A stretch of DNA of 62,251 bases, taken from the IMG/VR virus record IMGVR_UViG_3300035661_000066, positions 1 through 62,251 of that record, one strand, 5' to 3'. The notes below the pieces were generated by a model. It made no database searches, was not told the DNA's origin, and saw only the letters and a program-made list of their open reading frames with translations. The stretch comes from a virus. Positions 3,866-62,081 of this stretch are shown one piece after another. Position 1 is the first letter of the stretch. Every line of letters starts with the position of its first letter. Position numbers and translations under genes: made by a program.

Positions 3866-4135
3866 ATGACAACCTACATCGACTTCGCGCCCTCGACGAC
3901 GTCAAATTTCCAGTTTAATGCTACGCTTGATGGCCAGACCTACACGGTTACCGTGACCTGGAACGTCTTTGGGGCAAGATACTACGTCAACATCACGCAG
4001 GTGGATGGCACCCTGGTGCTAGCCATTCCGTTGATTGAGAGCCCCGACAGCTACGACATCTCCATGGTGGCTGGGTACTTTGCCAGCACGCTCGTCTATC
4101 GTGAGTCCACTGGCCAGTTCGAGGTCAACCCATGA
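3866..4135 (+). CDS. Baseplate plug-like protein
   Basis: This 89-residue all-beta protein (MTTYIDFAPSTTSNFQFN...) has the size, position and sequence feel of the baseplate plug domain family described in cyanophage Pam3 (gp18). GGAGG lies 7-8 bases upstream of ATG 3866. It overlaps the next gene by 4 bases. It likely closes the hub channel before ejection. The family call is from memory of its pattern. Confidence 0.55.
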   Translation: MTTYIDFAPSTTSNFQFNATLDGQTYTVTVTWNVFGARYYVNITQVDGTLVLAIPLIESPDSYDISMVAGYFASTLVYRESTGQFEVNP

Positions 4136-5100
4136 GGTACTACGAGATTGTTATCACCAGCCCTGCTGGTACCAGTAACCAACCGGCGGTGACCAAGCGC
4201 TTCAGCAGCCTGAACCCAGACGGGACGACCAACCTGGGGGCGCTGCAGATCGAGTTTGACTTCCCGGTCTGGGCCATGGCAGAACCTGCAGGAACAGCCT
4301 TCCTGCGCGTCTGGGGCATCAGCATCGTAGATATCTCGCAAGCCAGAAACTACAACGGCAGCAAGATCCAGGTGTACGCCGGGATGGCTGCTGGGCTCCC
4401 CCTAGCCAACCCCGCCTACCGTGGGTTGATCATGGAGGGAACGGTTCAGCAGGCCTTCGGCAACTGGCAGGAGACCAATCAGTGCCTGGACTTCGTCATC
4501 CAGCCATACGTCGGTGCCCAAGACGCGCCGGCCAACATCGTGCTGGACTGGAAGGCCGGTACCCAGCTAGCTGCGGCGCTGGCCCAGACCTTGACCGCCG
4601 CCTTCCCAGGTTACCAGGCGCCAGTAATCAACATCAGCCCGAACCTGGTGCTTCCAGCTGATGAGGTGGCGTACTTCCAGACGGCTACCCAGCTGGCTCA
4701 GTACCTGAAGCAGGTCACCCAAGCCTTGATCCAGGGGAACTACCCCGGTGTAGACATGGTGATACGCAACAACCAAGTGGTCGTCTACGACGGCACCAGC
4801 CGGGGCAAGCCCCAGCAGCTAAAGTTTATCGACCTGATTGGCCAGCCCACCTGGCTGGATTTTGGCACCATCCAGTTCAAATGCGCGGTCAGGGCCGACC
4901 TGAACGTGAACGACTACGTGACGATGCCCCCATCCCCCATCGTGGTCACGGCGCAGACCTACTCGCAGTACAAGAACCAGGCTACCTTCAGGAGCACCTT
5001 CCAGGTGATCCGGGTGCGCCACGTGGGAAACTACCGCCAGCGTGATGCCTCTGCCTGGGTGACCATCTTCGACGCTGTCCAACTACCAGAGGGGTCGTGA
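4132..5100 (+). CDS. Baseplate hub protein (T4 gp27 / P2 gpD-like)
   Basis: This 322-residue protein sits between the plug and spike genes. Its N-terminal part includes a segment like phage late-control D proteins (GTAFLRVWGISIVDISQARNY region, residues 54-75), followed by a central domain and a C-terminal beta domain. It would form the trimeric hub joining the spike to the tube. The assignment combines order and length with weak motif similarity. Confidence 0.6.
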   Translation: MRYYEIVITSPAGTSNQPAVTKRFSSLNPDGTTNLGALQIEFDFPVWAMAEPAGTAFLRVWGISIVDISQARNYNGSKIQVYAGMAAGLPLANPAYRGLIMEGTVQQAFGNWQETNQCLDFVIQPYVGAQDAPANIVLDWKAGTQLAAALAQTLTAAFPGYQAPVINISPNLVLPADEVAYFQTATQLAQYLKQVTQALIQGNYPGVDMVIRNNQVVVYDGTSRGKPQQLKFIDLIGQPTWLDFGTIQFKCAVRADLNVNDYVTMPPSPIVVTAQTYSQYKNQATFRSTFQVIRVRHVGNYRQRDASAWVTIFDAVQLPEGS

Positions 5101-5104
5101 TATA

Positions 5105-5854
5105 ATGAGCAACAGTCAAAAAACCCCCTTCCAGCGGTCAATTAACGCAGTAGCTGAGAAGCGGGTAGGCGACGCTATCCAGCAACGCGGTAAGGGTTTG
5201 CCCTGCTCTGTGGTAAGCGTAGCCGGTGCTATTGTGACAGTGAAGTTTGAGGTCCAAAGCGGTTTCACCCTGCCACAAGTGACGATCCCCCTCTTCGGCC
5301 CGGAGTACATTCGCTACCCCATACAGGTCGGAGATAAGGGCGTGGTGGTCCCACTCGATGCACGCCTCGGGGGGATCAGTGGCCTGGGTGGAACCGTGGC
5401 GGATCTAACCGTGCCCTCCAATCTCGGGGCGTTAGTGTTCCTGCCGATTGGCAACGCCCTCTGGTCCAGCGTCGACCAGAACTCAGTCACCATCTACGGC
5501 CCCAATGGCGTAGTAATGCGTGACACGGGGTCGAATAGCGTGATCACGCTGACCCCGACTAGCATCAGCATGGTGAGTCCGACGCAGATCAAGGCTACTT
5601 GCGGGGGTTGCACGTTCACGCTCAATAGCTCGGGGGCGTATACCCTGTCAGGCTCAGCCTCAGGGGCTATCTCAGCACCGTCTCTGTCGTTGACTGATGG
5701 GTCGCATAACACAGGCCCCACTGTGATGGCAACGGCTTGGCAGGCGCTGGTCAACTGGGCCAACTCGCACCAGCACACCGCGCAAGGCGCCACGGCAGTG
5801 ACCACCACGCCTAATACCCCATTCACCGGCGGTAGCATCGCCCCGAGCAACTAA
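5105..5854 (+). CDS. Baseplate central spike protein (gpV / Gp138-like)
   Basis: This 249-residue protein has an N-terminal OB-like region (about 35-115) of the Gp138/gpV type, then Ser/Thr/Gly-rich beta-helical repeats (about 125-195), and a tip region with HQH near residue 223 (NSHQHTAQG). Spike tips such as P2 gpV bind iron through an HxH motif. It is the membrane-piercing tip of the contractile tail. ATG 5105 follows the hub stop by four bases; the ribosome site is poor, so translation may be coupled. Confidence 0.75.
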   Translation: MSNSQKTPFQRSINAVAEKRVGDAIQQRGKGLPCSVVSVAGAIVTVKFEVQSGFTLPQVTIPLFGPEYIRYPIQVGDKGVVVPLDARLGGISGLGGTVADLTVPSNLGALVFLPIGNALWSSVDQNSVTIYGPNGVVMRDTGSNSVITLTPTSISMVSPTQIKATCGGCTFTLNSSGAYTLSGSASGAISAPSLSLTDGSHNTGPTVMATAWQALVNWANSHQHTAQGATAVTTTPNTPFTGGSIAPSN

Positions 5855-5864
5855 GGAGAAACCC

Positions 5865-6209
5865 TTGAGGACCTATGGACGGACCTACGACAGCAACGGG
5901 AACCCCAAGTGGGTGGTGGTGCAGACTGACAGCACAGGTAGCGACGACTACGTTTGGCTGACGACGCTGTGTCAGAACCTGAAATTGAACCTGGGGGAGA
6001 GCCCGTTCTATGCCGACCGAGGTATCCCGGCGCAGCGGGCGGTCATTGAGCAGGTGTTTCCTGACTATTACGTCAACCTGAATCAGCAGTACTTCGCCAG
6101 CTACTTCGCCAGCTTGTCTATTGCCAAGCAGGCGAGCTCAACCCCGACCTACAACATCAACGCGGTGCTGAACAACGGCACTAAACTTCAGACAACGGTG
6201 GCCGTATGA
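5865..6209 (+). CDS. Baseplate wedge protein (gp25-like), TTG start
   Basis: This 114-residue protein lies between the spike and baseplate J genes, the standard place for gp25/GpW-like wedges. The motif LGESPFYADRGIPAQ (about 45-60) matches the conserved core of this lysozyme-fold family. The start is TTG 5865, chosen because AAGGAG (5853-5858) is correctly spaced and no in-frame ATG exists before the conserved region. It overlaps the J gene by 4 bases. Confidence 0.7.
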   Translation: MRTYGRTYDSNGNPKWVVVQTDSTGSDDYVWLTTLCQNLKLNLGESPFYADRGIPAQRAVIEQVFPDYYVNLNQQYFASYFASLSIAKQASSTPTYNINAVLNNGTKLQTTVAV

Positions 6210-7627
6210 CGACAAATACTCTGCCTACGGTGGTGACGAGCGCGGGTCTTCAGCCTCAGAACCCCAATGACTTGCTGGCCCAGCTGCTGAGCTACGTGGC
6301 AGCTACCAACCCAGGTTACACAGCTAACCTGCCGGGCTCCTTGATTGAGGACATCTCCAGCACGGACGTTGGGGCAATGGTGCTGATTGATTCTGCTCGA
6401 GTGGAGGCCGTGAACTCCCTCACCCCGTACGGGGCAAACAACTTCCTGCTGACCCAGCTGGGCAACATGTATGGAGTAGCTCAGGGGCAGACCACCAATA
6501 CCAGCGCTTATGTGGTTTTCACCGGCACCCCAGGCTTTCCCATCAATCCCGGCTTCATCGTGGCTGATAGCGGCCACCAGTACGTTGTGCAGACAGGCGG
6601 CATTGTAGGCGCCAGCGGTACCTCGGCGCCGATCTACGTGGTCGCCAACCAGACAGGTAGCTGGGCGGTACCGCCAAACACGATTACCACGGTCGTAACG
6701 TCGGTCCCCTCGACCATCACGCTCAAGGTGACCAACACCACCGCAGGTACGCCGTCGGCAGCTGCTCAGACCGTGGCGCAGTATCGTGCGCAGGTAATCC
6801 AGGCTGGCCAAGCTTCGGCCACCGGCATGCCGACGTTCCTGAAGACTCAGCTGCTTGGGGTGGCTGGGGTGCAGCCGAACCTGGTAGCTGTACGCCAGGT
6901 AGGCAGCAACTGGCAGGTGATCTGCGGTGGCGGTGACCCCTACCAAACAGCCTACGCGATTTACAAGGGGCTGTTTAACATCAACAACCTCCAAGGCTCG
7001 GCTCTGGCTGTTAGCGGCATCACCAACGCCAACCCCGGGGTGGTCACCACCAACCTGGCCCACGGGCTGGCGACGGGGCAGGTCATCACATTGTCAGGCG
7101 TGGTGGGAATGACCCAAATCAATGGTCAGGCACTGACGATCACGGTAACGTCCCCAACCACCTTCTCGACCGGGATTAATACCACGAGCTATGACACCTA
7201 CACCAGCGGGGGTCAGCTGTCGCCCCACCCACGTACCGTTACGGTAACCATCAACGACTTCCCCGACGCTTACCAGATCCCGTTTGTCAACCCGCCCCAG
7301 CAGCAGGTGGGGATGGTGGCAACGTGGAATACCACCCAGACGAACCTGGTGCTTAACTCTACGGTGCAGCAGCTGGCCACGCCGCCGATGATTAGCTACC
7401 TGAACAGCCTGTCGCCAGGGTACCCCATCAACATCCTGGATCTGCAAAGCATCTTCCAGGCTGCTGTGACCTCGGTGATCCCAGCCCAATACCTGTCGAA
7501 GCTGACCTTCTTGGTCACCATCAACGGGGTGGTGGTGAACCCGACGGCGGGTACTCAGCTGATCTACGGCGACCCCGAGTCCTACTTCTACGCGTCACCG
7601 ACTAGCATCTCGGTTATTAGGGGGTAA
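6206..7627 (+). CDS. Baseplate J-like protein with inserted FCCH-like beta module
   Basis: This 473-residue baseplate wedge protein shows the typical J start (LLAQLLSYVAATNPGYTAN, GSLIEDISSTDVGAM) and conserved TPYGANNFLLTQLGNMYGV. Residues of about 270-335 are an insertion (GVVTTNLAHGLATGQVITL ... TYTSGG) resembling the E1-FCCH-like module found in many phage virion proteins. Similar insertions occur in the sheath and two other virion proteins of this phage. It would link inner wedges to the tail fibre attachment ring. Confidence 0.85.
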   Translation: MTTNTLPTVVTSAGLQPQNPNDLLAQLLSYVAATNPGYTANLPGSLIEDISSTDVGAMVLIDSARVEAVNSLTPYGANNFLLTQLGNMYGVAQGQTTNTSAYVVFTGTPGFPINPGFIVADSGHQYVVQTGGIVGASGTSAPIYVVANQTGSWAVPPNTITTVVTSVPSTITLKVTNTTAGTPSAAAQTVAQYRAQVIQAGQASATGMPTFLKTQLLGVAGVQPNLVAVRQVGSNWQVICGGGDPYQTAYAIYKGLFNINNLQGSALAVSGITNANPGVVTTNLAHGLATGQVITLSGVVGMTQINGQALTITVTSPTTFSTGINTTSYDTYTSGGQLSPHPRTVTVTINDFPDAYQIPFVNPPQQQVGMVATWNTTQTNLVLNSTVQQLATPPMISYLNSLSPGYPINILDLQSIFQAAVTSVIPAQYLSKLTFLVTINGVVVNPTAGTQLIYGDPESYFYASPTSISVIRG

Positions 7628-13978: not shown

Positions 13979-14158
13979 CTAGCGCCGAGGCTTCAGCGCG
14001 TGCTTCGAGGGCTTCAGGCTGGCGACGAGCTCTAGACACCGCTCCCGGTGGCTCTTGCAGGGGGGCTTCTCGTCGTCCCGGTCCCAGGTCAGCCCGCAGC
14101 GGCGACAGTGGTACTGGTTGCTGCTCATCAGCCGCGCCTGGCAGTCAGTCGTGCCCAT
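13979..14158 (-). CDS. Small Cys-rich zinc-ribbon-like protein
   Basis: This 59-residue protein includes CRRCG followed by spaced Cys and His residues (HCRRCGLTW ... CKSHRERC) that could bind one zinc. ATG 14158 overlaps the upstream phosphatase stop by 14 bases; ATG 14128, giving 49 residues, is an alternative start. Function unknown. Confidence 0.45.
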   Translation of the reverse strand: MGTTDCQARLMSSNQYHCRRCGLTWDRDDEKPPCKSHRERCLELVASLKPSKHALKPRR

Positions 14159-14750
14159 GCTGCAGTGGCTCCCGTGGTTGGTGGAAGCTGTCAGGTGGGG
14201 CTTGCAGGCAGAGCACCCCGTTGGCCAGCCACATGTCGACCACCCGCTGGCGGTCCTCAAAGGCAGCTGCTAGGCGGCAGCGCTTGGTTGGAGCCAGGGA
14301 GTCAAGCCAGCCCTCCTTGAGCCGGTAGTCCGGCGTGAAGTCACCACGCTGCCGCATGGTTATCATACGGCACAGTTGGTCACGTCCCAGCTGCGTGTGA
14401 TGCCGCAACCAGTCAAGCGTCTGGCTGTAGACCTCGTCCGAGCGCCCGGTCCAGATCTCTACCTCCGCACCGCTAAGCAGCAGGGACCTAAGCAGCTGGA
14501 TCATTGGCCAGATGGGGCTGTCATGCACGCAGGCCTGGTAAAAGGCGCGGTAGTTCTTCTTGAAGTCAGGATCTTGACCGGTCACGCCGCACACGGGGCA
14601 GGTGGCACCCAGCGCCACCCCGGCCGGGTTGTCGGCCCGCACCTCACCCAGGCAGTGCGGGCAAGGCGGCGTGGTGATCCAGGCCAGTCGGTGCCGGCAA
14701 TCGGCCAGCGTGCCGTCGAGGTCGAAGATGTAGAGCGGTTGGTTAGTCAC
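14145..14750 (-). CDS. HAD phosphatase, T4 polynucleotide kinase 3'-phosphatase-like, with zinc-ribbon insert
   Basis: This 201-residue HAD enzyme shows IFDLDGT near the start, WTGRSD, RLKEGW and FEDRQRVVDMWLANGVLC, the last closely resembling the end of the T4 Pnkp phosphatase domain. A CPHC/CPVC zinc ribbon is inserted after motif I. There is no kinase domain. The GTG start at 14750 overlaps the upstream gene by 8 bases. It probably removes 3'-phosphates from nucleic acid ends or nucleotides. Confidence 0.75.
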   Translation of the reverse strand: MTNQPLYIFDLDGTLADCRHRLAWITTPPCPHCLGEVRADNPAGVALGATCPVCGVTGQDPDFKKNYRAFYQACVHDSPIWPMIQLLRSLLLSGAEVEIWTGRSDEVYSQTLDWLRHHTQLGRDQLCRMITMRQRGDFTPDYRLKEGWLDSLAPTKRCRLAAAFEDRQRVVDMWLANGVLCLQAPPDSFHQPREPLQHGHD

Positions 14751-15033
14751 AGTGCTTCTCCGTGATGGCATTAGGTGTGATAGTTGCGGCCACCCGCACC
14801 GAGCAGACGTGTACGTTGCAAAGCGGACCATCCACGTACGCGCAGCCCACGGCGCGGTAGACCTGGCATTGTTGGCGGGCTTGGCTAACAGTCGGTTGCT
14901 GCTCCAACCGCGCGCGAAGCTCGGCCGCTGCGCGCTCAGCCAGTTGGAGGGCCTCGCCAAAGTTAGCATGCGCCACAGCTAGGCGGGTCACGGTCTGGTT
15001 GATCTGATCCAACAGCTCAGAAAGTTGCTCCAT
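14743..15033 (-). CDS. Coiled-coil protein of unknown function
   Basis: This 96-residue protein has a helical N-terminal part (about 1-50) and a Cys/Val-rich C-terminal part. ATG 15033 is chosen because GAGGAG lies 8 bases upstream; an in-frame GTG at 15039 is too close to it. It overlaps the phosphatase start by 8 bases. No family recognised. Confidence 0.5.
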   Translation of the reverse strand: MEQLSELLDQINQTVTRLAVAHANFGEALQLAERAAAELRARLEQQPTVSQARQQCQVYRAVGCAYVDGPLCNVHVCSVRVAATITPNAITEKHCD

Positions 15034-15035
15034 GG

Positions 15036-15260
15036 TCACAGCTCCTCGTCATTTAGAAAGTCGTCCTGCCGCTCCTGGCGCAGTCGCTTGGCCTCAGCCC
15101 GGTCCTCGATTTTACGCCGCGCCTCGCAGCGCCGCTTGTCAGCTGGGGTGGCCCTGGTGGACGACACCTCCAGGCGGCCCCACAGCTCCTCCTTGCGCAG
15201 CCGCCGCTTGTTGCCGTACTGCAGGCGGTAGGCGGCGCGCAGCACATGCTGGCTTGTCAT
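15036..15260 (-). CDS. Small highly charged protein
   Basis: This 74-residue protein is very rich in Arg, Lys and Glu and probably one long helix (AEAKRLRQERQDD). ATG 15260 overlaps the dCMP deaminase stop (ATGA), implying translational coupling. Possibly nucleic-acid binding; function unknown. Confidence 0.5.
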   Translation of the reverse strand: MTSQHVLRAAYRLQYGNKRRLRKEELWGRLEVSSTRATPADKRRCEARRKIEDRAEAKRLRQERQDDFLNDEEL

Positions 15261-15874
15261 GGTTGGCTCCAGTCCCGCACCCACAACTTCTCAGGCGCGT
15301 GCTGCACCCACAGCCGGCCGGCGCTCTCCCACAGCTCGCGGGCTGCCGAGTGCGGGTACTCGTCCAGGTAGACGATCCGCACGCAGCTGGTGTTGAGCAG
15401 CAGCTTGGTACAGGTCATGCAGGGGCTGGCTGTGACGTAGCAAGCACTGATAGCGTGGATATCAGGGCACTGGAGTAAGGCATTCTGCTCGGCGTGGATC
15501 GCCTGACAGGCGTCCAGGCTCTGGCCGCTCGGTGCTTCGGCCCCAGCGCAGGCATGTGGGTAGTGGTCGTCGAAGCCGACGCACTGGCGGGCACCCCCGG
15601 TATAGAGCTTAGCGGCGTACTTGATTACCGACTGACTGCCGCTCACCTGCCAGTAGTCCCCCAGGTCAGCGACTCTCGGATCGTCGTGGTAGATGGGTGA
15701 CTGCGCACGTTCATTGCAATGAGGCTGGCCAGCTGCTACGCCGTTGTAGCCGGTGGCCAGCACGTGACCCCGGGCATTGAGCAGCACGGCGCCAACGGCG
15801 CGGCGCTTGCAAGTGGTTCGCTGGGCGGTGATCAAGGCCAGCTGCATGGCCCACTCGTCTCTTGATGGTCGCAT
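15257..15874 (-). CDS. Deoxycytidylate (dCMP) deaminase
   Basis: This 205-residue zinc deaminase has the HAE motif (His127, Glu129) and PCMTC (Cys152, Cys155), plus a zinc-site-like N-terminal region with HCNER around 52-56, as in T4 Cd. It converts dCMP to dUMP. In this phage it would balance dCMP used by the TS-fold enzyme at 16990. AGGAGG lies just upstream of its ATG. Confidence 0.9.
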   Translation of the reverse strand: MRPSRDEWAMQLALITAQRTTCKRRAVGAVLLNARGHVLATGYNGVAAGQPHCNERAQSPIYHDDPRVADLGDYWQVSGSQSVIKYAAKLYTGGARQCVGFDDHYPHACAGAEAPSGQSLDACQAIHAEQNALLQCPDIHAISACYVTASPCMTCTKLLLNTSCVRIVYLDEYPHSAARELWESAGRLWVQHAPEKLWVRDWSQP

Positions 15875-15884
15875 TGTTGTCTCC

Positions 15885-16585
15885 CTAGGAGGTTAAGCGG
15901 TGGTGGTTCGCGGTCTCAACTGGCCGATGCAGGGACTCGCCGGCGCCAGCTTCCAGCCCGGCTTCCACACCAGAGCTGTAGAACCGAGACTGACGGGTAA
16001 TGGCCGGCACGATCGGCCCGTAACGGCGCTCGATAAATTGGTTTGTGCTGGCTACCAGCTCCGCTGGCTTAGCAAAAGCTACTACGGTCCTGCTGATCGC
16101 CTCAATCCAACCGATGCAGAAGCCGTTGGCCTCAGTTGTCTTGGCGGTACGCGGCCAGTGGCTGGGCAGCTGCTGCACGTGGGCGGCGCGCGCGCCTTCG
16201 TCAGCTTGCGGAGCAGCACCTGGGCCGTGTATTGTGCGATGGGCAGCTGCGAGCTGGGGCCGACCAGGCGCCAGCTGCCGAACAGCTCCTTGGCCGTGCG
16301 TCCGTGGCTGTTGCCACGCATCCACAGCAGGTGGCAGCCAAAAGCCTCAGCGACAAGACGCATTAGCTTGAGCTCCCAGGCGGGTACCTTGGTAGAGCCA
16401 GCCGTGGAGCGGACGTCGGTCTCGTTAATCTCGCTGACGGCCACGTCCATCGTGGTCAGCCCATGCTTCTCCATGAGCTTCTGCGCTTGGCGCAAGGCGG
16501 CAGCGGCCTCATTAGGCTCGCTTGAGCTGCTGAGCGCCAGGCACTTCTTGATCTTGCGCATGATGTCGTCGCTAGGTCCGGCCAT
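15885..16585 (-). pseudogene. DUF2786-like gene interrupted by a frameshift in a (GC)5 repeat
   Basis: From ATG 16585 the frame encodes a DUF2786-type N-terminus (DDIMRKIKKCLALSSS ... AAAALRQAQKLMEKHGL). After LRKLTKARA it runs into non-homologous sequence and would stop at 16082. The family-like continuation (HVQQLPSHWP ... EANGFCIGWIEAI) is in another frame ending at 15885. The switch falls at five GC units (16186-16195). Removing one unit would restore a continuous protein of about 232 residues. It may be a sequencing error, slippage or phase variation. Confidence 0.75.
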
Positions 16586-16604
16586 CACAGGTTCCTTAGT
16601 GTCA

Positions 16605-16907: not shown

Positions 16908-16936
16908 ATTATAGCCAGCTAAACCATGCTTGTAAA
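16908..16936 (-). promoter_or_regulatory. Early sigma70 promoter, copy 1
   Basis: On the minus strand, -35 TTTACA (16936-16931) and a perfect -10 TATAAT (16913-16908) are 17 bp apart, with an A/T-rich stretch upstream. The leader contains TGATCA and CTGCTGAGGA before the ATG at 16867. Nearly identical promoter-leader units lie upstream of 29898 and 39884. Confidence 0.85.
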
Positions 16937-16959: not shown

Positions 16960-16981
16960 AAAAAGCCCACTTGCGTGGGCT
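16960..16981 (-). terminator. Intrinsic terminator after the TS-fold gene
   Basis: On the minus strand AGCCCAC (16981-16975) and GTGGGCT (16970-16964) form a 7-bp stem with a 4-base loop, followed by a T-run (16964-16960). It ends the operon that finishes with the gene at 16990 and insulates it from the promoter just downstream. Confidence 0.8.
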
Positions 16982-16989
16982 TGCTCAGG

Positions 16990-17793
16990 CTAGTCGTAGA
17001 TCTCCCACCAGCGCCCGAGGTCACCTGGCGCGGAGTCGCGTACCAGCTTCAGGGCGTCCATCAGGTACTGCTCGCTGTGGTACATCAGCATCGGGGTAAT
17101 GCCCTGCACAGGGTCCCCCATCGGGGGCTGCTTCAGCAGTGCCAGGGCCGGCTCGAAGTGCTGCTCGTACAGGTGGCTGCTGGCAGCCGTCAGGTACAGG
17201 ACCCCTGGTATCGCCAGTGGCTCAGCCAGCGGGGACTGGGTCACGTTCAGCCGGCTGCAGATCAGATGGGCCAGCATGCTGAAGTTGAAGACGTCATACG
17301 GCAGCCCCAGCCAGACGTCAGATGAGCGCATGAACACATGCAGGTTCAGCTGGCCGCCCCGTAGGTTGGCGAAGATGGCCACCGTGCATGGCACGTCCTT
17401 GGTGGCTGGCGGGTTCTCGCGCCAGATGGTCAGCCCCGCTTGGCGGGAGTCCGGGTCTGCCAGCAGCTTCGCCACCACGTAGTCCAGCTGGCCGCGGATC
17501 TTGGGGCCGTAGGCCCCAAAGAACGTCTCACCGTTGTCGCTGAACTGGGAGATGTGCTTGTTCCACGGGGCGATCCCTGCCACCGTGTCGTCGCCTGACA
17601 GGATCCAGTAGGCCTCAGCTGCCATGAACTTGTAGCTGAGCTTGCGCGCCGGCACCGTCAGGACCGGCGAGCGCATGCTCACGCAGACCGTGTGCTGGGG
17701 CAGCTCCATGGTTAGTTGACCGCGCGGGCTGACTTGAGTGCCGTAGGTAAACAGCTGCTGGAGGGTCTGCAGCCAAACTTCATTCATTGACAT
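16990..17793 (-). CDS. Thymidylate synthase-fold enzyme, probably dCMP (hydroxy)methylase
   Basis: This 267-residue protein has the TS active site: Cys136 in VPCT, RSSD (156-159), GLPYD (163-167) and SHLY near residue 218, plus Glu60 and FGAYG for the folate site. Where thymidylate synthases have Asn (E. coli Asn177, GLPFN), this protein has Asp167. T4 dCMP hydroxymethylase also has Asp there (Asp179), and that residue favours cytosine. So it probably acts on dCMP, forming hydroxymethyl- or methyl-dCMP. Plain thymidylate synthesis cannot be excluded. SD AAGGA supports ATG 17793. Confidence 0.8.
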   Translation of the reverse strand: MSMNEVWLQTLQQLFTYGTQVSPRGQLTMELPQHTVCVSMRSPVLTVPARKLSYKFMAAEAYWILSGDDTVAGIAPWNKHISQFSDNGETFFGAYGPKIRGQLDYVVAKLLADPDSRQAGLTIWRENPPATKDVPCTVAIFANLRGGQLNLHVFMRSSDVWLGLPYDVFNFSMLAHLICSRLNVTQSPLAEPLAIPGVLYLTAASSHLYEQHFEPALALLKQPPMGDPVQGITPMLMYHSEQYLMDALKLVRDSAPGDLGRWWEIYD

Positions 17794-18742
17794 GGGTAAG
17801 TCCTTTTAAGATGGCGGTCAGCGGGTAGGCCCGGCCGCTGTTAAACCGCTTGGCGTGCTGCGGGTGCGGCACCTTCAGCAGCTGGCGACCGGGCACCAGC
17901 GGCCGTAGTCGCTCGGTAGCCTCGTTCCCCAGCGCGATGACGAAGGTCTCGCCAGCCACGAGCTGGGTAAACAGCTCAGAGCCGATGAACGGGTCGTCGC
18001 TATTTACCCACAGCAGCTGGCGCTCGGTGACGTCGCCCAGCTGGCGGGCCAGCCACTGGCTGCAGCCGCTGTGGCTGAACGAGGCGAAGGGCCACTGGTA
18101 CCAGGGGTCCTGGTCCTTGCGCTCGGCGAAGTCCAGCCCGACGAGCATTAGGCGTGCCTGCAAGTTGCCAGCGGTGCGGTAGGCCAGCGGGTGCCGCGGC
18201 GTGCGGATGCTGTCGACCACCTCCGGGCTGAGCGCACCAAACAGGTCAAAGTCCTGGGTGTAGTCGTACATGTACCGCGGCAGCGCGGTGGTGAGGTCCG
18301 TGTAGTGACCGTAGACCGACAGCAGCTGCGCCTCCGACTCCAAGTACTCCTCCCCACGCCGACCCCGGAAGGTAGCCAGGCAAGCAGCAGCTGGCGGGTG
18401 GCAGTGCACCACCACGGCCCCGCAGCGCAGCGCCAGGCGCTCCAGCATGCGGCGGCTAGCGTCCCCCAGGCGGTCCTGGCCGCCGCGGTAGGCCAGCCCA
18501 TACGGCACCTCGCTTAGCCAGCAGCGGTCGAAGACCACATCCTGGTAGCCCAGCAGCGCGGGCAGCATCGCCTCAACGTACAGCCGCGCCAGCCCCTCGG
18601 TGACCAACGGCAGGGCTGGGAAGTGGACGTAGACGGCGCCGGTCAGCTCGGCAAATCGCCTAGCTGCGGTGGACTTGCCGCTGCCGTCGCAGCCCTCGAA
18701 GATCGTCAGCCGCTTACAGCTGGGTGGTATGCTCAGGGTCAT
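17780..18742 (-). CDS. Thymidylate kinase-like enzyme fused to a uracil-DNA-glycosylase-like domain
   Basis: This 320-residue protein begins with a TMPK P-loop (FEGCDGSGKST, 15-25), then a DR motif (FDRCWLSEVP) and an Arg-rich lid (FRGRRGEEYL). Residues from about 190 to the end are a second domain patterned like the UDG superfamily: VGLDFAE, SGCSQWLARQLG, LWVNSDDP, VIALGNEA and a closing VPHPQH. The kinase may phosphorylate (modified) dNMPs. The second domain may recognise or remove a base or be a binding module. It overlaps both neighbours. Confidence 0.7.
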   Translation of the reverse strand: MTLSIPPSCKRLTIFEGCDGSGKSTAARRFAELTGAVYVHFPALPLVTEGLARLYVEAMLPALLGYQDVVFDRCWLSEVPYGLAYRGGQDRLGDASRRMLERLALRCGAVVVHCHPPAAACLATFRGRRGEEYLESEAQLLSVYGHYTDLTTALPRYMYDYTQDFDLFGALSPEVVDSIRTPRHPLAYRTAGNLQARLMLVGLDFAERKDQDPWYQWPFASFSHSGCSQWLARQLGDVTERQLLWVNSDDPFIGSELFTQLVAGETFVIALGNEATERLRPLVPGRQLLKVPHPQHAKRFNSGRAYPLTAILKGLTHVNE

Positions 18743-19175
18743 CGATGCACCTCCGTTCGTCTACCAGGTTGTCCACCGGATCTAGCCACCTAACCTGCAC
18801 GTAGCCAGCCTCCTCGAGGAGCTTCAAGGTCTTCGGCCCCACCCACCCGGCTGGCTTGATGCAGTCGACCTTGTTGCCGCGCTTGCCCACCCCACGCTCC
18901 TTGGTCATGTTGGCACGCTGCACGTCGTCCCACAGCTCCTTCCAGGGCAGCCCCAGTTGCACCGCGGTACCCTTGGCTACGTAGACCAGGTCAACCAGCG
19001 CATCGGCGATCTCAGCCAGGTCCTGTGTCAAGATGCCGTGCTCCAGCTCAGCCAGCTCCTCACGCAGGAAGTTAAGTCGCTCGAGCAGCTTGCGCTTGGT
19101 CAGGTGCACCGGCTTATCGTGCACCAGCATCCCGAACTTTTGGTGGAACAGCTTTACGTCGTTGAACTCGCTCAT
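18714..19175 (-). CDS. MazG-like nucleotide pyrophosphohydrolase
   Basis: This 153-residue all-alpha protein has the MazG/PRA-PH metal site: EELAELE (39-45) and EIADALVDLVYV (55-66). The family hydrolyses (d)NTPs to NMP plus pyrophosphate. Between a methyltransferase and a nucleotide kinase/TS-fold pair, it may act as a dCTPase, like T4 gp56, clearing unmodified nucleotide. ATG 19175 is one base after the methyltransferase stop, and its end overlaps the kinase start by 29 bases. Confidence 0.8.
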   Translation of the reverse strand: MSEFNDVKLFHQKFGMLVHDKPVHLTKRKLLERLNFLREELAELEHGILTQDLAEIADALVDLVYVAKGTAVQLGLPWKELWDDVQRANMTKERGVGKRGNKVDCIKPAGWVGPKTLKLLEEAGYVQVRWLDPVDNLVDERRCIDDPEHTTQL

Positions 19176-19176
19176 G

Positions 19177-19947
19177 TCACTTCTCCACGACCCACAGGTT
19201 GTTGCGGGCATTGTCGGGGTACAAGCAGCCAAAGATGTTGCTGATGGCATCGTTGTCGAAGTACTGCTCCAGCCCTTGGCGGGTCAGCTTGATGGCCTCC
19301 AGCAGCTTCTTGTTGTCCATGCCGGGCACCTGAGGCTCCACCTTGCCGATGTGCTTGATGTCCATGAACGTGCCGAAGCGGCGGGCTACCTTCAGCCTGC
19401 CCTTCTCGATGTGGGCCTGCAGGGTGGGGACGTCCATCTCGTTAATGTGATTCGCTGCCATGCGCTTGCCATCGTAGACCGGCGTCGAGAGCAGCAGCTT
19501 GCCACCAGGCTTCAAGCACGCGCTGACCGCCTTGATGAAGGCGGGCATGAAGCGGCTGTGGAAGTGCTCGATTACCTCCATGCAGACGATCACGTCATAG
19601 CCCTCGGGATGCAGCTTCAGCAGCTCCTTAAAGCGCTCGATGAAGTTGAACTCCCCGATGAAGGTCAGTCGCTGGCTGCTCGAGGGCTTCAACTTGTTCA
19701 GGTCGACACCCACGTACTTGCCCACGCTAGCGGCCGCGCCACCAGTGAGGATCTTTGACAGCGGCTTGTCCTGCCCGCAGCCGATCTCGAGCACGGTGTC
19801 GGTGGCTTTGATGTAGCGACGGGCGAAGCTCCAGCGGAAGAAGTGCGCCGAGTAGTCCCGGTGCAGGGTGCGGCCGTGGCCAGCCTCGTGCAGCTGGGTG
19901 GTATCGAAGTCGCGCGCGTCGCGCTCTACTACTTTGGTCTTTGCCAT
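19177..19947 (-). CDS. Class I SAM-dependent methyltransferase
   Basis: This 256-residue protein shows motif I VLEIGCGQ (about 52-59), the acidic ribose-binding end of strand 2 in YVGVDLN, and motif IV region VIVCMEVIEHF, typical of small-molecule Methyltransf_11/23 enzymes. There is no DPPY or PCQ motif of DNA adenine or cytosine-5 methylases. It heads the compact block running through MazG, kinase and TS-fold enzyme, so a role in modifying a nucleotide or hypermodified base is plausible but unproven. Confidence 0.75.
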   Translation of the reverse strand: MAKTKVVERDARDFDTTQLHEAGHGRTLHRDYSAHFFRWSFARRYIKATDTVLEIGCGQDKPLSKILTGGAAASVGKYVGVDLNKLKPSSSQRLTFIGEFNFIERFKELLKLHPEGYDVIVCMEVIEHFHSRFMPAFIKAVSACLKPGGKLLLSTPVYDGKRMAANHINEMDVPTLQAHIEKGRLKVARRFGTFMDIKHIGKVEPQVPGMDNKKLLEAIKLTRQGLEQYFDNDAISNIFGCLYPDNARNNLWVVEK

Positions 19948-19979: not shown

Positions 19980-21083
19980 TTACTTGGGCTCGGGCGGGTT
20001 AAGCCCTTGCTTGGTCAGGTAGTTGCGGTACCAGCGAACGTAGCTCCGCTTCTTGTTGCTCAGGTTGAACTTGAGCTGGACGCGCTCAAAGATCTGGTCG
20101 TCGGTCAGCTGCCCCTCCATGATGAGCTTCTGGAACATGCCGGCGGCTGACGAGTCGTTGAACACGCCCGGGTTCTTCAGTGGCCGTACCTCCTTCTTCG
20201 GCTTCTTGGGGCGGTGGATGTGGTCAGACTCGCCCATCAGCTGAGTAGCCTTGGCCGACATTTTGTTGATGGAGGCCCGGTTGACCAGCTTGACCCCAGC
20301 TTCATTGGCGTCGTCGTGGGTGTCCGTATCCTCCCACGGGGTAGACGTGTCCTTGGTGGGCGAGCGTCGCTTGGCTGAGGTCTTGGCTACTGGGGAGGCC
20401 TCGTACTTCTTGCGGTTCTCCACAGCAGCGATAGCCAGCTCCCGCTCGCTGTTAAGCATCTTGCACATCTTGCCCAGCGCGTCCATGGCCTCAGCCGTGG
20501 CTCCCAGGTGCTGGGAGAACTCGACGTAGAGCCGAGCTGCCTTGTCGACCGGGTAGTCAGGCATCGGCTTGTAGCGCTCGTCAAAGACCGCCTCAGAGAT
20601 GACTGCCACCACCAGGCCATCGCTGGCAGACAGCGGGATGTGGTGCACCTGGCCCTTCTCACGGAACAGCTCGATGCAGGTACGGCGCTGGTGGTCAGCG
20701 CAGGGACGGGCTTTCGGGTAGCCCTTGGGTGAGCTCATCTTCGGAACCTCCAGTCTAGTTTTGAGGATGTCTTCCAGCAGCTTAAGCTGCTGGGAGGTTG
20801 ATTTTAAGAGTACCTTGAAGTTGTTGCGCAGCTGCGCCGCCGTCTGGTGGCGCGACTGGTCAAGCCTAGGTAGGAACTGCCGCCAGAAATCGACATGGGC
20901 CAACTCAAGCAGCTGGGCGGTGTAGAGGTTATGCGTCAACACGGTCACAGCGGTCGACGTGACGGCTACCACCAAGGCCTGCTCGCCAGCAATGATGTTA
21001 CCGCCCCCGTAGTTATAGGGGCACCGCTGGAAGCTGACGCCGAGCAGCGCCGAGTCCAGGGCCTTTGGCTTGGTTGAAGCCAT
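19980..21083 (-). CDS. Early protein with C-terminal WYRN module
   Basis: This 367-residue protein is the first gene after early promoter 21150-21179. The N-terminal 220 residues look globular; a charged low-complexity linker (about 235-305) follows. The last 55 residues end in a module (NLSNKKRSYVRWYRNYLTK) shared with the genes at 29003 and 29512. The family was not recognised. The linker-plus-module design suggests a nucleic-acid or partner-binding tail. Confidence 0.6.
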   Translation of the reverse strand: MASTKPKALDSALLGVSFQRCPYNYGGGNIIAGEQALVVAVTSTAVTVLTHNLYTAQLLELAHVDFWRQFLPRLDQSRHQTAAQLRNNFKVLLKSTSQQLKLLEDILKTRLEVPKMSSPKGYPKARPCADHQRRTCIELFREKGQVHHIPLSASDGLVVAVISEAVFDERYKPMPDYPVDKAARLYVEFSQHLGATAEAMDALGKMCKMLNSERELAIAAVENRKKYEASPVAKTSAKRRSPTKDTSTPWEDTDTHDDANEAGVKLVNRASINKMSAKATQLMGESDHIHRPKKPKKEVRPLKNPGVFNDSSAAGMFQKLIMEGQLTDDQIFERVQLKFNLSNKKRSYVRWYRNYLTKQGLNPPEPK

Positions 21084-21149: not shown

Positions 21150-21179
21150 ATTATAGCTTAGGTAGGCCGCTACCGTAAA
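21150..21179 (-). promoter_or_regulatory. Early sigma70 promoter, copy 2
   Basis: Minus strand: -35 TTTACG (21179-21174), 18-bp spacer, perfect -10 TATAAT (21155-21150). The leader carries the palindrome half-copy and then the CTGCTGAGGA ribosome-site motif before ATG 21083. It lies directly after the helicase stop codon at 21183. Confidence 0.75.
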
Positions 21180-29002: not shown

Positions 29003-29422
29003 TTACTTGGCCAGCAAGCCCTTCCGACGCAGCTGGTTGCGGTACCAGTTGGGGTAGTGCTTCTTGCTGTCGTCCAGCTGGAACTCGGCTTGGATGGCCG
29101 CCCAAACCTCGGCGTTGGTCTTGCCAGCCAGCAGGAGCTCAGTGGCAGCACTGGTGACGGTGCGCCTGGTGGGTTTGGCGGCCAGTTTAGCGGGCGCCGG
29201 CTTGGCTGCTTTGGCCGCCGACTTAGCGGTGGGCGCCGGCTTGGTAGGTACCTCCGCCAGCTGCTTGAGCTGAGCGGCATGCGCCTCAGCGGCAGTCAGG
29301 TTCAGCTCCACCCCGCCATCCACCTTGGTGATGAAGGCCTCGTAGTCGCGGGCGTGGATGCCCAGCTTGCGCAGCACGGTGGTGGCGGAATCGCGACGGG
29401 CGTAGAACTTGGTCTGAGACAT
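29003..29422 (-). CDS. Small protein with WYRN C-terminal module, paralogue 1
   Basis: This 139-residue protein has a short alpha/beta N-domain (1-65), an Ala/Lys/Pro linker (about 70-100), and a C-terminal module: LLLAGKTNAEVWAAIQ, then FQLDDSKKHYPNWYRNQLRR. The module is nearly identical to that of the next gene upstream (29512) and related to the end of 19980. Duplication with diverged N-domains is likely. Confidence 0.65.
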   Translation of the reverse strand: MSQTKFYARRDSATTVLRKLGIHARDYEAFITKVDGGVELNLTAAEAHAAQLKQLAEVPTKPAPTAKSAAKAAKPAPAKLAAKPTRRTVTSAATELLLAGKTNAEVWAAIQAEFQLDDSKKHYPNWYRNQLRRKGLLAK

Positions 29423-29461
29423 GATGGCTCCAGTGGGCAAAAGTAGGCAACATTGCCACGA

Positions 29462-29485
29462 CAGCTGCCGCGTGAGCAGCAGCTG
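29462..29485. terminator. Intercistronic hairpin
   Basis: CAGCTGC (29462-29468) pairs with GCAGCTG (29479-29485). It is preceded by GGCAACATTGCCA (29447-29459), a motif that also precedes hairpins at 35699 and 36167. No T-run. It probably modulates read-through between the two WYRN-module genes. Confidence 0.45.
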
Positions 29486-29511
29486 GCATTGCAAGTCGAC
29501 ACAGTGGCTGC

Positions 29512-29898
29512 TTACAGCAGACCTTTCTTCTTCAATTGATTGCGATACCAGCTTGGGTAGCCTTTCTTGCCATCGTCAAGCTGGAACTGGGGTTGAATTA
29601 CTGCCCATACCTCCGCATTGGTCTTCCCAGCCAGCAGCAACTTGGTGGCGACGCTGGTGATGGTTTCAGACTTTGTGGCAGCGGCAGTGGCAGCTTTAGG
29701 AGCAGCTTTAAGCTCCACAAAGATGGCGCTGGTGGTCGGAATGCCGTGGCTGCTGTGCTTCTTCACGAAGGCTTTGGCAGCTGCCTCAGTATCGAACTGC
29801 TGAGCTGCATTGATGTCCTTGGTCACGTCACAGTTCTTAAACTTTGCATCATACTGCTTGATGTAGAACTTGCTCAGCTTATTTTGAATGACGAACAT
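29512..29898 (-). CDS. Small protein with WYRN C-terminal module, paralogue 2
   Basis: This 128-residue protein is the first gene behind early promoter 29939-29967. The N-domain (1-65) looks like a compact binding fold (FVIQNKLSKFYIKQYDAKF). After a short linker comes LLLAGKTNAEVWAVIQ, then FQLDDGKKGYPSWYRNQLKK. Strong early promoter and tandem paralogue suggest a role in takeover or DNA metabolism. Confidence 0.65.
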   Translation of the reverse strand: MFVIQNKLSKFYIKQYDAKFKNCDVTKDINAAQQFDTEAAAKAFVKKHSSHGIPTTSAIFVELKAAPKAATAAATKSETITSVATKLLLAGKTNAEVWAVIQPQFQLDDGKKGYPSWYRNQLKKKGLL

Positions 29899-38600: not shown

Positions 38601-39083
38601 CTAAAGAAAGACCGCGTTGGTAAAGTCGGTGTGGGCATTCACCACCGCCCACTCCAGGTCAACCTCACGGAAGTCGGCGTGGCGGACCGTGGCGCTTTGC
38701 AGGTTGGCGAACTTCAGGCTCGCCCGGTAGAACGAGGCCCCCGAGGCCGTGGCTTGCCGCAGGTCCGCGTGGTCCAGCGTGGCCCCGATGAACCGCACCC
38801 CCGTGAGCTCGGCCTGCGTCAGGTCCGCGTAGCTCAGGTCGCTACCCGCCAAGTCAGCCCCGATCAGCGTCGCCTGGCTGAGGTTCGTGCCCAGCAGGTG
38901 GCAGCCCCGCAGCTTAGCTCCGATGAGCACGACGCCGGCCAGGTCGAGGCCTGACAGGTCCTGACCCGACAGGTCCACCTCCGTCGTGTGCAGCTGCGCC
39001 AGGCTCTGCTTCAAGATGCTGGCTGGGCAGGTGACGTAAATGCCCCCGTCTAAGTCCTTGATTTGTATGAAGTTTTGTGCCAT
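38601..39083 (-). CDS. Pentapeptide repeat protein
   Basis: This 160-residue protein has about 20 tandem A(D/N)LXX-type pentapeptides from residue 35 to 158 (DLSGQDLSGLDLAG, ADLAGSDLSYADL), which fold as a right-handed quadrilateral beta helix. Some such proteins (Qnr, MfpA) mimic DNA and bind gyrase, and others are toxin-immunity or inhibitor proteins. In an early operon a host-enzyme inhibitor or protector role is plausible. Confidence 0.85.
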   Translation of the reverse strand: MAQNFIQIKDLDGGIYVTCPASILKQSLAQLHTTEVDLSGQDLSGLDLAGVVLIGAKLRGCHLLGTNLSQATLIGADLAGSDLSYADLTQAELTGVRFIGATLDHADLRQATASGASFYRASLKFANLQSATVRHADFREVDLEWAVVNAHTDFTNAVFL

Positions 39084-39099: not shown

Positions 39100-39621
39100 T
39101 CAGGTTGGTAGCAAGCAGCTGTCGTCGAAGCGCTCCGCCTCGGCCAGCTTCGCCTGCAGGAACTCGGGCACCGGCCTGAGGCGGTACCGCAGCACCCACG
39201 CCGGCTTGGTCTGGTAGTAGGCCTGGTACGCAGCCACGGTGCTGCTGAGCCGCTGGCACTCAGGCGGCATTACCTGGGGCGGCGGCATGAAGGGCAGGTC
39301 TGGGCCCGGCCAGCTCAGCCAGAAGCCGGTGAACAGCGTCAGCAGCTGCTCGCACCTGTGGGTCTTCTGGTAGCGGTGCTTGTACTCGTAGCACAGCGCC
39401 TGGAAGTGGCGCAGCAGCCAGCGGTAGTGCGCGCTGCTGGCACGGACCCACAGGGCCGAGGGGTGGTTGACGTGCGTGGGCCGGTACGGCGCCGCGACCC
39501 CAAAGCAGCTCATGGTCGTCGACAGCAGCTGCGCCGACTCCAGCGTCATCTTGACCACGTGCTTGTCGCACAGCAGCTGCGCCGCCTCCATGGGGTCGGC
39601 CGACAGGTAGAAGATGTTCAT
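39100..39621 (-). CDS. Conserved phage protein with CDKHVVKM motif
   Basis: This 173-residue protein belongs to a phage family with MNIFYL...DP...AAQLLCDKHVVKM, THVNHPSALWVR and CYEYKHRY motifs. Such proteins are sometimes annotated as pyrimidine-dimer glycosylase-like, but I cannot confirm that. The conserved His, Lys, Glu and Cys suggest an enzyme. It overlaps the upstream gene start by 4 bases. Confidence 0.6.
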   Translation of the reverse strand: MNIFYLSADPMEAAQLLCDKHVVKMTLESAQLLSTTMSCFGVAAPYRPTHVNHPSALWVRASSAHYRWLLRHFQALCYEYKHRYQKTHRCEQLLTLFTGFWLSWPGPDLPFMPPPQVMPPECQRLSSTVAAYQAYYQTKPAWVLRYRLRPVPEFLQAKLAEAERFDDSCLLPT

Positions 39622-60674: not shown

Positions 60675-62081
60675 ATGACCCAACCGAACATCGTCATTCT
60701 TAACGTCAGTCAGACCACGCCGCCGGCACCTAGCACGCTGCAGCGGACGGGGGCGCTGGTGACGCAGGGTGGGACCAACCTGGCAGCAGGCAGCACCTCG
60801 CTGCTGACCCAGAAGTCGGACCTGACCCCGCTGTTGCCTACGGCCGCCGCCATCTCTAGCGCTGCCTGGTTGACTGGCGTGGTAACCATCACAACCACCA
60901 ACCCGCATGGCCTGGCCAATGGCTCGACGGTGAGCCTGACCATCGCCGGGTTCACGCCCACCGGCTACAATGGTACCTTCACCTGCACCGTGACCGGCGC
61001 CAACACCTTCACCTACCCGCTGACCACCAACCCCGGTGCTGCGACGGTGCAAGGCACGTGGGTACCGTACGCCTCCATCATGCTGCAGCAGATGGCCAAC
61101 ACGTTCTTCGCCCAAGGGTCGAACACCAGCGTCTACGTGCTGGAGCTGGGTGCCGGCACCACGGCGCAGGGCGTAACCGCGCTGGCGGCTTACGACACGG
61201 CAAACCCGAACCAGTTTTACTCGTACCTGGTGCCGCGTGGCTGGGATGCCGAGCCGACGTACGTGCAGCTGATGGCGACCTACACCGGTTTGACAGCGAA
61301 GAAGTACTTCTTCACCACGGTGACCCTGTCGACCTACAGCAGCTTCGTAACAAACGGGACCAGCACGCCGCTGAAATGCGTGTTCATGATGATTGAGGCC
61401 CCGGCTGTCACGAGCAACGTTAGCAGCCCGTTGACGGAATTTACCTTGGCCTCGGTCTTCCAACGCACGCTGAACTACAACCCGAGCCCCTCGAATCAGG
61501 TTACCCCGCTGTGCTTCAGCTACCTGACCGGTGTTACCGTCTATCCGGCTACCGGTCCGCAGGCCGCCGCTTTCAAGACCAACAATGTCAACTACGTCGT
61601 TACGGGTGCTGAGGGCGGGATCAGCAACACCATGCTGGTCTGGGGCCACATGTGCGACGGCAACCCGTTCAACTACTGGTACTCGGTAGACTGGACCCAG
61701 ATCAATCTGGAGCTTGACATCTCCAACGAGATCATCAACGGCTCGAACAACCCGCTGGCGCCGCTGTACTACAACCAGCAGGGCATCAACCGGCTGCAGG
61801 TGCGCGCGCAGAAAACCTTCACCCGAGGCATCGCCTACGGGCTGGTCCTGGGCAATGTCACGGCCAGTCAGTTGTCCGGGGCCGACTTCGCCACGGCGCT
61901 GGGCAATGGTGCTTATGCCGGCCAGTGCGCAGTCAACGCGATCCCGTTCGCCAACTACAACTCGCTCAACCCGTCCGACTACGCCATCGGGAAGTACGCC
62001 GGCCTTGCGGCAGTCTACACGCCGCTGCGCGGGTTCGAGCAGATCGTGTTTAACCTTAACGTGACGAACTTCGTCGCCTAA
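60675..62081 (+). CDS. Tail sheath protein with N-terminal FCCH-like module
   Basis: This 468-residue protein is a contractile sheath: a C-terminal domain with RVFTRGIAYGL-like core and IPFANYNSLNPSDYAIGKYAGL, ending LRGFEQIVFNLNVTNF, a typical sheath closing strand. Near residues 60-130 it has an inserted beta module (GLANGSTVSLTIAGFTPTGY). It directly precedes the tube gene. Its last codons are repeated at 1-43. Confidence 0.85.
   Translation: MTQPNIVILNVSQTTPPAPSTLQRTGALVTQGGTNLAAGSTSLLTQKSDLTPLLPTAAAISSAAWLTGVVTITTTNPHGLANGSTVSLTIAGFTPTGYNGTFTCTVTGANTFTYPLTTNPGAATVQGTWVPYASIMLQQMANTFFAQGSNTSVYVLELGAGTTAQGVTALAAYDTANPNQFYSYLVPRGWDAEPTYVQLMATYTGLTAKKYFFTTVTLSTYSSFVTNGTSTPLKCVFMMIEAPAVTSNVSSPLTEFTLASVFQRTLNYNPSPSNQVTPLCFSYLTGVTVYPATGPQAAAFKTNNVNYVVTGAEGGISNTMLVWGHMCDGNPFNYWYSVDWTQINLELDISNEIINGSNNPLAPLYYNQQGINRLQVRAQKTFTRGIAYGLVLGNVTASQLSGADFATALGNGAYAGQCAVNAIPFANYNSLNPSDYAIGKYAGLAAVYTPLRGFEQIVFNLNVTNFVA

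Follow-up and report, generated by a model that had tools for sequence, protein, structure and literature searches.

A recurrent viral gene cassette predicted to hydroxymethylate cytosine nucleotides, with a possible O-methyl cap

Four adjacent genes in a 62,251-nucleotide stretch of viral DNA (hereafter the window) raise the question of whether they encode a pathway for replacing cytosine in the viral genome with a modified base. Phage T4 makes 5-hydroxymethylcytosine (5hmC) DNA using a dCTPase (gp56), a dCMP hydroxymethylase (gp42), a dNMP kinase (gp1) and glucosyltransferases, and counterparts of the first three of these activities appeared to be gathered in one place here.

Layout of the block and its recurrence in other viruses

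The four genes all lie on the minus strand within 16990-19947. Their coordinates and family matches confirmed the original prediction of a leftward block joined by overlaps or 1-base gaps: the TS-fold and kinase genes overlap by 14 nt, the kinase and MazG genes overlap by 29 nt, and the MazG start (ATG at 19175) leaves a 1-base gap to the methyltransferase gene. The features are as follows.

15257..15874, minus strand: dCMP deaminase, which would supply dUMP for dTMP, in its own transcription unit in the window
16908..16936, minus strand: sigma-70-like promoter candidate directly beyond the terminator (TTTACA-17-TATAAT; consensus match only)
16960..16980, minus strand: intrinsic terminator at the end of the block (fold energy, and pattern compared with shuffled sequences)
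16990..17793, minus strand: TS-fold gene, predicted dCMP hydroxymethylase, 267 aa (Thymidylat_synt, PF00303, E 1e-21)
17780..18742, minus strand: predicted dNMP kinase of the thymidylate-kinase family fused to a UDG-superfamily domain (profiles, alignment and model)
18714..19175, minus strand: MazG-like (PRA-PH) pyrophosphohydrolase, predicted dCTPase (PF01503, E 5e-15)
19177..19947, minus strand: class I SAM methyltransferase (Methyltransf_23, E 3e-16)
19980..21083, minus strand: conserved upstream gene with no assigned function, matched in 42/44 methyltransferase-seeded loci
21150..21179, minus strand: sigma-70-like promoter candidate on the upstream side of the operon (TTTACG-18-TATAAT; consensus match only)

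The intrinsic terminator proposed to close the block was borne out, with the letters GCCCAC-GCAA-GTGGGC-TTTTT at 16980-16960, a folding energy of -20.9 kcal/mol over 45 nt (z -5.05), and zero matches to its pattern among shuffled sequences. A generic terminator scan did not list it, probably because part of the T run is drawn into its stem. The gene for dCMP deaminase was expected downstream and is indeed there, but two small ORFs, a promoter-like site and the terminator stand between it and the block; most relatives carry it immediately after the TS-fold gene. The promoter candidate at 16908-16936 would serve the downstream unit, whose last gene is the dCMP deaminase.

Dozens of viral contigs share the gene order methyltransferase, MazG (or dUTPase_2), kinase–UDG (or Nmad1-like), TS-fold, dCMP deaminase, indicating that the block is not a chance arrangement. 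Among methyltransferase-seeded loci with room for the neighboring genes, a TS-fold gene was found in 39/39 and MazG or dUTPase_2 in 38/39, where either family was accepted wherever the MazG match was short. Loci seeded with the TS-fold gene likewise show the linkage. Since the kinase–UDG gene is missing from about one third of the methyltransferase loci, and from those entire records, it is not indispensable; it and the DUF1599/Nmad1-like protein are exchangeable accessory parts. The cassette is widespread among uncultured viruses and occurs in siphovirus-, myovirus- and podovirus-type genomes, with the window itself carrying the tail-sheath and baseplate genes of a myovirus.

Active-site residues of the nucleotide enzymes

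We assigned the TS-fold protein using published criteria (PMC5175136, PMC6400193, PMC8670742). Its key residues are the catalytic C136, D133 three residues ahead of it, D167 at the position of E. coli TS N177, E60, H207 and Y209. The catalytic Cys, the Asp three residues ahead of it, and the Asp at the Asn177 position, which aligns with that of the CMP hydroxymethylase MilA, were each invariant in 78/78 aligned sequences, and Thr occupied the His147 column in 77/78. Columns 177 and 147 are those most associated with C-modified contigs, in which TS co-occurs with PRA-PH and dCMP deaminase (PMC8670742). Asp or Glu at the Cys-3 position activates water in the hydroxymethylase (PMC6400193), whereas this position is Leu in TS, where a C-terminal tail closes off the site for methylation. 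No such tail was present among the C-termini listed, the window protein ending in ...GRWWEIYD.

The top PDB match was MilA (7e-15), ahead of all TS. MilA (PDB 5b6d, 5jnh) shares the Asp at both the specificity and Cys-3 positions but prefers the ribonucleotide CMP via Lys133 and Ala176, while the window protein has the deoxyribonucleotide forms: the residues that work on MilA identified as deoxyribose determinants, Arg117 and Ser157, were present in 78/78 sequences. The enzyme resembles that of T4 in having equivalents of Asp179 and Asp145 and in lacking the TS tail. In contrast, the Ser/Thr-x-Tyr element of the T4 signature (Ser94-x-Tyr96) is replaced by Gly93-Ala94-Tyr95, with the Gly in 78/78 sequences, so we do not claim strict T4-type membership. 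Taken together, these residues support placing the protein within the TS superfamily in its cytosine branch, where it would act like the T4 enzyme.

The pyrophosphohydrolase carries the MazG/PRA-PH metal motif EExxE...ExxD, read in its sequence as EELAE...EIAD, and thus differs in type from the T4 dCTPase. In some relatives its slot is occupied by a dUTPase_2 protein (PF08761 in L008, a similar protein in L119), a likeness to T4. Based on its family and this slot replacement, we predict that the MazG protein is a dCTPase.

The fusion protein comprises a kinase part (residues ~1-183) and a UDG-superfamily part (~184-320). The P-loop, the DR motif and the TMPK fold are all present in the kinase part, whose fold matches YorR and TMPK (E 2e-6; model pLDDT 92); it is predicted to be a dNMP kinase of the thymidylate-kinase family, a family assignment from which the nucleotide preference cannot be read. 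Both this type and the UDG-fold extension differ from T4. The Pfam UDG model gave no match to the window protein, so that a profile search was needed: against PDB, UDG4/UdgX was the only family matched by the C-terminal domain (E 0.003), with a match to TM0511 at E 9e-5, and PF03167 matched 5/17 members of the domain, the window member not among them. In UDGs, catalytic motif A takes the form GxDPx or GEAPG (GEAPG/GEQPGD in Family 4 UDG and UdgX). The cassette domain, which also differs from these enzymes in being joined to a nucleotide kinase, has VG-x-x-FAE-x-K or VGEQVNPK in its place in the aligned sequences, and a His-Pro resembling motif B is retained. Thus, the earlier description of the domain as glycosylase-like stands as regards superfamily membership, but base excision is doubtful because the usual motif A is lost. 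A "G:T/U glycosylase" in L005 (P0001), which resembled a split-off UDG domain, was considered as a candidate orthologue and set aside.

The methyltransferase and the proposed pathway

The best profile matches of the methyltransferase were UbiG (6e-9) and Hen1 (2e-7). An E124-x-x-E127-H128 motif and a downstream H167 were invariant in 54/54 methyltransferases; the motif aligned with UbiG and Hen1, and the distal His, just beyond that alignment, was assigned by position. In HEN1, the E-x-x-E-H and downstream His residues are metal ligands. As in HEN1/HENMT1 and UbiG, the motif follows strand 4 and the conserved His follows strand 5, whereas the N-terminal RDYxxHxxRW and C-terminal Y-x-D...RNxxW motifs of the cassette family lie outside these matches. 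The original prediction of a methyltransferase without a DNA-methylase motif can therefore be refined: the Hen1/UbiG-like metal motif points to O-methylation rather than C5, N4 or N6 methylation of DNA. The motif and the gene linkage together suggest that its substrate may be the hydroxymethyl group of 5hmC.

We propose the following pathway. MazG would hydrolyze dCTP to dCMP, clearing the pool of normal C and at the same time supplying the substrate of the TS-fold protein. The latter would then use methylene-tetrahydrofolate and water to place CH2OH on C5 of dCMP, a step with residue-by-residue support. The kinase domain would convert 5hm-dCMP to the diphosphate and host NDP kinase would then yield 5hm-dCTP, which the phage polymerase would take instead of dCTP. 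We consider this core, from dCTP removal to incorporation in place of C, probable. Next, the Hen1/UbiG-like, metal-dependent methyltransferase would O-methylate the hydroxymethyl group, on the nucleotide or in DNA, to give 5-methoxymethylcytosine or a related capped base; this weaker step is tentative, with a likelihood somewhat short of even. More speculatively, the UDG-superfamily domain may bind or screen cytosine or uracil nucleotides or DNA without excising bases. dCMP deaminase would divert dCMP to dUMP for dTMP, and the outcome would be phage DNA that resists host nucleases with C-containing sites. The joint reading, in which 5hmC is capped by a SAM-dependent O-methyltransferase fixed in the cassette and the kinase–UDG screens the modified nucleotide, is possible rather than probable. 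A literature search gave no mention of a 5-methoxymethyl base among the papers listed (15 of 577).

A restriction-resistant relative and competing readings

All five genes have orthologues in Stenotrophomonas phage AXL3 (gp27-gp31; 47-66% protein identity), arranged in the same order, and the AXL3 relative Pseudoxanthomonas phage PW916 has the same five-gene region. AXL3 is a siphovirus, in contrast with the myovirus-type window, and both it and PW916 encode a separate ThyX; a search for ThyX in the window did not find one. AXL3 DNA resisted 35/37 restriction enzymes, with TasI and Tru1I alone cutting, at the A/T-only sites AATT and TTAA; its authors assigned gp27-gp30 to thymidylate synthesis and left G or C modification open (PMC7504290), and the PW916 authors also read these genes as thymidylate synthesis. 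The resistance pattern separates neither C from G modification nor 5hmC from hypermodified C. Together with the active-site residues and the slot replacement, it supports the predicted T4-like triad of a dCTP-removing pyrophosphatase, a dNMP kinase and a dCMP hydroxymethylase.

The pathway might instead end at 5hmC, with the methyltransferase and UDG-like domain doing something else, such as methylating RNA or a host factor as anti-defense. The methyltransferase fold is also similar to mRNA cap enzymes, and none of the tested known capping families was found: carbamoyltransferase PF02543 was absent from the window, AXL3, PW916 and MW202621, and the earlier statement that no glycosyltransferase was seen held for Glycos_transf_2, the sole family tested. 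Carbamoylation and family-2 glycosylation were accordingly set aside as caps. The 5-carbamoyloxymethylcytosine phages found by MetaGPA similarly combine a TS carrying Asp177, PRA-PH and dCMP deaminase, but their cap enzyme is a carbamoyltransferase, whose place the methyltransferase takes here (PMC8670742). Against a 5hmC endpoint, the methyltransferase was never without a TS-fold gene in the methyltransferase-seeded scan (39/39), and AXL3 DNA, cut by 0/35 of the enzymes with G/C in their sites, is closer to hypermodified T4 (cut by 13/227) than to 5hmC T4gt (cut by 41/227), although the rough P values of 0.004-0.006 for T4gt versus 0.5-0.85 for T4 are weak evidence since the enzyme panels differ. 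We regard a 5hmC endpoint as unlikely but a serious alternative.

Alternatively, the TS-fold enzyme could make 5-methyl-dCMP, placing 5mC throughout the DNA as in Xp12, with the methyltransferase unrelated. Xp12 is a precedent for such a solution, and cited mutagenesis indicates that Asp177 by itself also permits TS to make 5-methyl-dCMP. However, D133 takes the place of the Leu of TS and the site-sealing tail is absent. Moreover, KpnI and AhdI fully cut the 5mC DNA of Xp12 (PMC7653180), whereas AXL3 DNA resisted KpnI and Eam1105I, an AhdI isoschizomer (PMC7504290), so AXL3 DNA is not simply 5mC; we consider this reading improbable. More improbable still is a guanine modification of the 7-deazaguanine type, which would make AXL3 resistance uninformative about the cassette: G/C bases do occur in the blocked sites, but no QueC or TGT family member was found in AXL3, PW916, MW202621 or the window (a divergent transglycosylase could escape such a search), and none of ten AXL3 proteins scanned had a 7-deazaguanine function. 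Least credible is an ordinary thymidylate synthesis operon of dCMP deaminase, TS, thymidylate kinase and a dUTPase-like MazG, which agrees with the published annotations and the thymidylate-kinase-like fold but is rejected because Asp177 is invariant, the TS tail is absent and AXL3 and PW916 each encode ThyX separately, and which leaves the restriction resistance without explanation.

The cytosine-modification reading thus corrects the thymidylate-synthesis annotation and turns an unexplained fact, that AXL3 DNA was uncut at every tested G/C-containing site, into a specific pathway proposal. The roles of the exchangeable kinase–UDG and DUF1599/Nmad1-like proteins could be solved jointly. If real, the methyl cap would add a new base to those known in DNA and mask 5hmC from modification-dependent nucleases without the use of a sugar, and the methyltransferase would be a new enzyme reagent.

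Layout of the gene block and its surroundings

The linear 62,251-base IMG/VR virus record carries the block on its minus strand, with the following features in order of transcription:

21179-21150, minus strand: promoter-like site upstream of the block (consensus match only)
19980-21083, minus strand: 367-aa gene, function not assigned (first)
19177-19947, minus strand: class I SAM methyltransferase (second)
18714-19175, minus strand: MazG/PRA-PH protein (third)
17780-18742, minus strand: kinase with an extra domain (fourth)
16990-17793, minus strand: TS-fold protein (fifth)
16980-16960, minus strand: terminator closing the block (strong hairpin, then five T)
15257-15874: dCMP deaminase, in the next unit past the block terminator

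The 367-aa gene lies 32 nt from the methyltransferase gene. The tight four-gene leftward arrangement of the original prediction was confirmed, with a 1-nt gap between methyltransferase and MazG, overlaps of 29 nt (MazG/kinase) and 14 nt (kinase/TS-fold), and the closing hairpin and five T. The dCMP deaminase predicted downstream is present but belongs to the next unit; a PNKP-type phosphatase (HAD) protein is encoded shortly after it (14145-14969). A single 267-aa ORF of the public record MW202621 is matched by a pair of window ORFs that lie in different frames (16082-16588 and 15885-16325), suggesting that a DUF2786 gene (15885-16588) carries a frameshift, whether real or from sequencing.

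Elsewhere, the window is a mosaic (60675-62081, 4132-7627 and 21183-42094) that joins myovirus tail sheath and baseplate genes to a replication module like that of Stenotrophomonas phage AXL3; this module (polymerase, helicase, Cas4-like nuclease, primase and ligase) has 44-69% protein identity to AXL3-type phages. AXL3 gp34 has two matches side by side at 29003-29898 (ORFs 29003-29494 and 29512-29898), which points to either a tandem duplication or the splitting of one gene. The window also encodes a pyrimidine-dimer DNA glycosylase-like protein (39100-39621; Pyr_excise, E 2e-9) and a pentapeptide-repeat protein (38601-39083; E 6e-37) that is possibly a DNA mimic.

Predicted cytosine specificity and the restriction resistance of AXL3 DNA

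TS-fold relatives were gathered from viral contigs and annotated phages (78 distinct sequences), and specificity determinants were taken from PMC5175136 and PMC8670742. Four residues did not vary: the catalytic Cys, the Asp that occupies the place of E. coli Asn177, and an Arg and a Ser indicative of a preference for deoxyribonucleotides. In the His147 column, 77 of the 78 sequences have Thr. In a metagenomic association study (PMC8670742), cytosine-modified contigs were best told apart from unmodified ones by positions 177 and 147. The top PDB match was MilA, a CMP 5-hydroxymethylase, ahead of all thymidylate synthases.

The T4 enzyme has no TS C-terminal tail, and its water-activating residue, at position -3 relative to the catalytic Cys, is an Asp where TS has Leu (PMC6400193). 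This Asp (D133) was present in 78/78 sequences, and the window protein likewise ends before the tail, features that support hydroxymethylation over methylation as its predicted activity. However, the T4 signature Ser two residues before Tyr is Gly in all 78, so we withhold a strict T4-type label.

AXL3 carries all five genes, deaminase included, in the same order (47-66% identity). Of 37 enzymes tried on its DNA, just two, TasI (AATT) and Tru1I (TTAA), cut it, and the authors of that study suspected modified bases yet assigned gp27-gp29 to thymidylate synthesis (PMC7504290). AXL3 encodes a separate ThyX. All 35 enzymes whose sites contain G/C failed to cut, a pattern closer to T4 (hypermodified) than to T4gt (5hmC), although the enzyme panels differ. 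Neither AXL3 nor the window contains QueC or TGT families, whose presence would have pointed to 7-deazaguanine. Eam1105I is an isoschizomer of AhdI. KpnI and AhdI digest the fully 5mC-containing Xp12 DNA to completion (PMC7653180), whereas KpnI and Eam1105I failed to cut AXL3 DNA (PMC7504290), indicating that AXL3 DNA is not simply 5mC.

Linkage of the cassette across relatives

A scan seeded with the TS-fold gene returned 86 loci, many cut by contig ends, with deaminase in 79, MazG in 72, methyltransferase in 63 and kinase in 61. To avoid circularity, the scan was repeated from the methyltransferase alone, counting the 39 loci that had 2.6 kb or more of downstream sequence. Many of their contigs also occur in the TS-seeded set, which means that the two samples are not independent. 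The TS-fold gene was present in 39/39, with the Asp in all 38 readable, and a MazG or dUTPase_2-type protein in 38/39. A kinase–UDG gene occurred in 25 loci and a DUF1599/Nmad1-like gene in 13, mutually exclusively, as was also true across the whole records searched; the latter (~125 aa) replaces kinase–UDG between MazG and TS-fold at relatives' loci L007, L009, L011, L012 and others. At locus L008 a PF08761 (dUTPase_2) protein occupies the MazG slot, and at L119 a protein similar to it. T4 gp56 is, we presume, of this type, and this substitution supports dCTP removal as the slot's predicted role. The methyltransferase is almost missing from bacterial genomes (4 MAG contigs).

Taken together, the Asp at position 177 and the Cys-3 Asp (78/78), the missing TS tail, the cassette linkage and AXL3 resistance support the cytosine-modification reading at the core of the original prediction.

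The public records of MW202621 (L001/L088) and Pseudoxanthomonas phage PW916 (L002/L089) both contain the kinase–UDG gene but leave it unannotated. In some relatives the cassette contains an inserted gene that has the NPPC region of C5-cytosine DNA methyltransferases: L010 (2209-3555), L022 (2276-3598), L050 (2512-3621) and L048 (3553-5004; the only one checked for the Pfam match, E 4e-15). Such genes are odd if C is already replaced, and they possibly represent a further modification step.

Kinase–UDG fusion and the possible cap

The N-terminal part of kinase–UDG is folded like YorR and thymidylate kinase. The glycosylase-like domain originally proposed on the kinase is borne out by its C-terminal profile, for which family 4 UDG/UdgX was the only match among solved structures; 5 of 17 members reached Pfam UDG at E <1 (best 4e-5). 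However, the domain keeps a His-Pro resembling motif B but has other residues in place of motif A, and we would expect it to bind or screen rather than to excise bases in the normal way.

For the methyltransferase (METHYLTRANSFERASE), AlphaFold predicted a class I fold with high confidence (pLDDT 93), and the top PDB matches of its profile were UbiG O-methyltransferase (6e-9) and bacterial Hen1 (2e-7). E124-x-x-E127-H128 and H167 were invariant in 54 sequences, down to ~27% identity. The counterparts of these residues in HEN1 (Glu, Glu, His and His) are ligands of a Mg2+ ion to which the hydroxyl acceptor is bound as well (PMC10781085); E-x-x-E-H alone aligned between the two, the fourth ligand being assigned by position. 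Consistent with the original prediction, which saw no glycosyltransferase, the window, AXL3, PW916 and MW202621 contained no family-2 glycosyltransferase, and no carbamoyltransferase was found in these four. From the metal motif and the strict linkage to the putative hydroxymethylase, the simplest inference, which we hold tentatively, is that the methyltransferase may O-methylate the hydroxymethyl group. Overall, the cassette probably represents a new variation on cytosine replacement of the known 5hmC type, with a cap that may itself be new.
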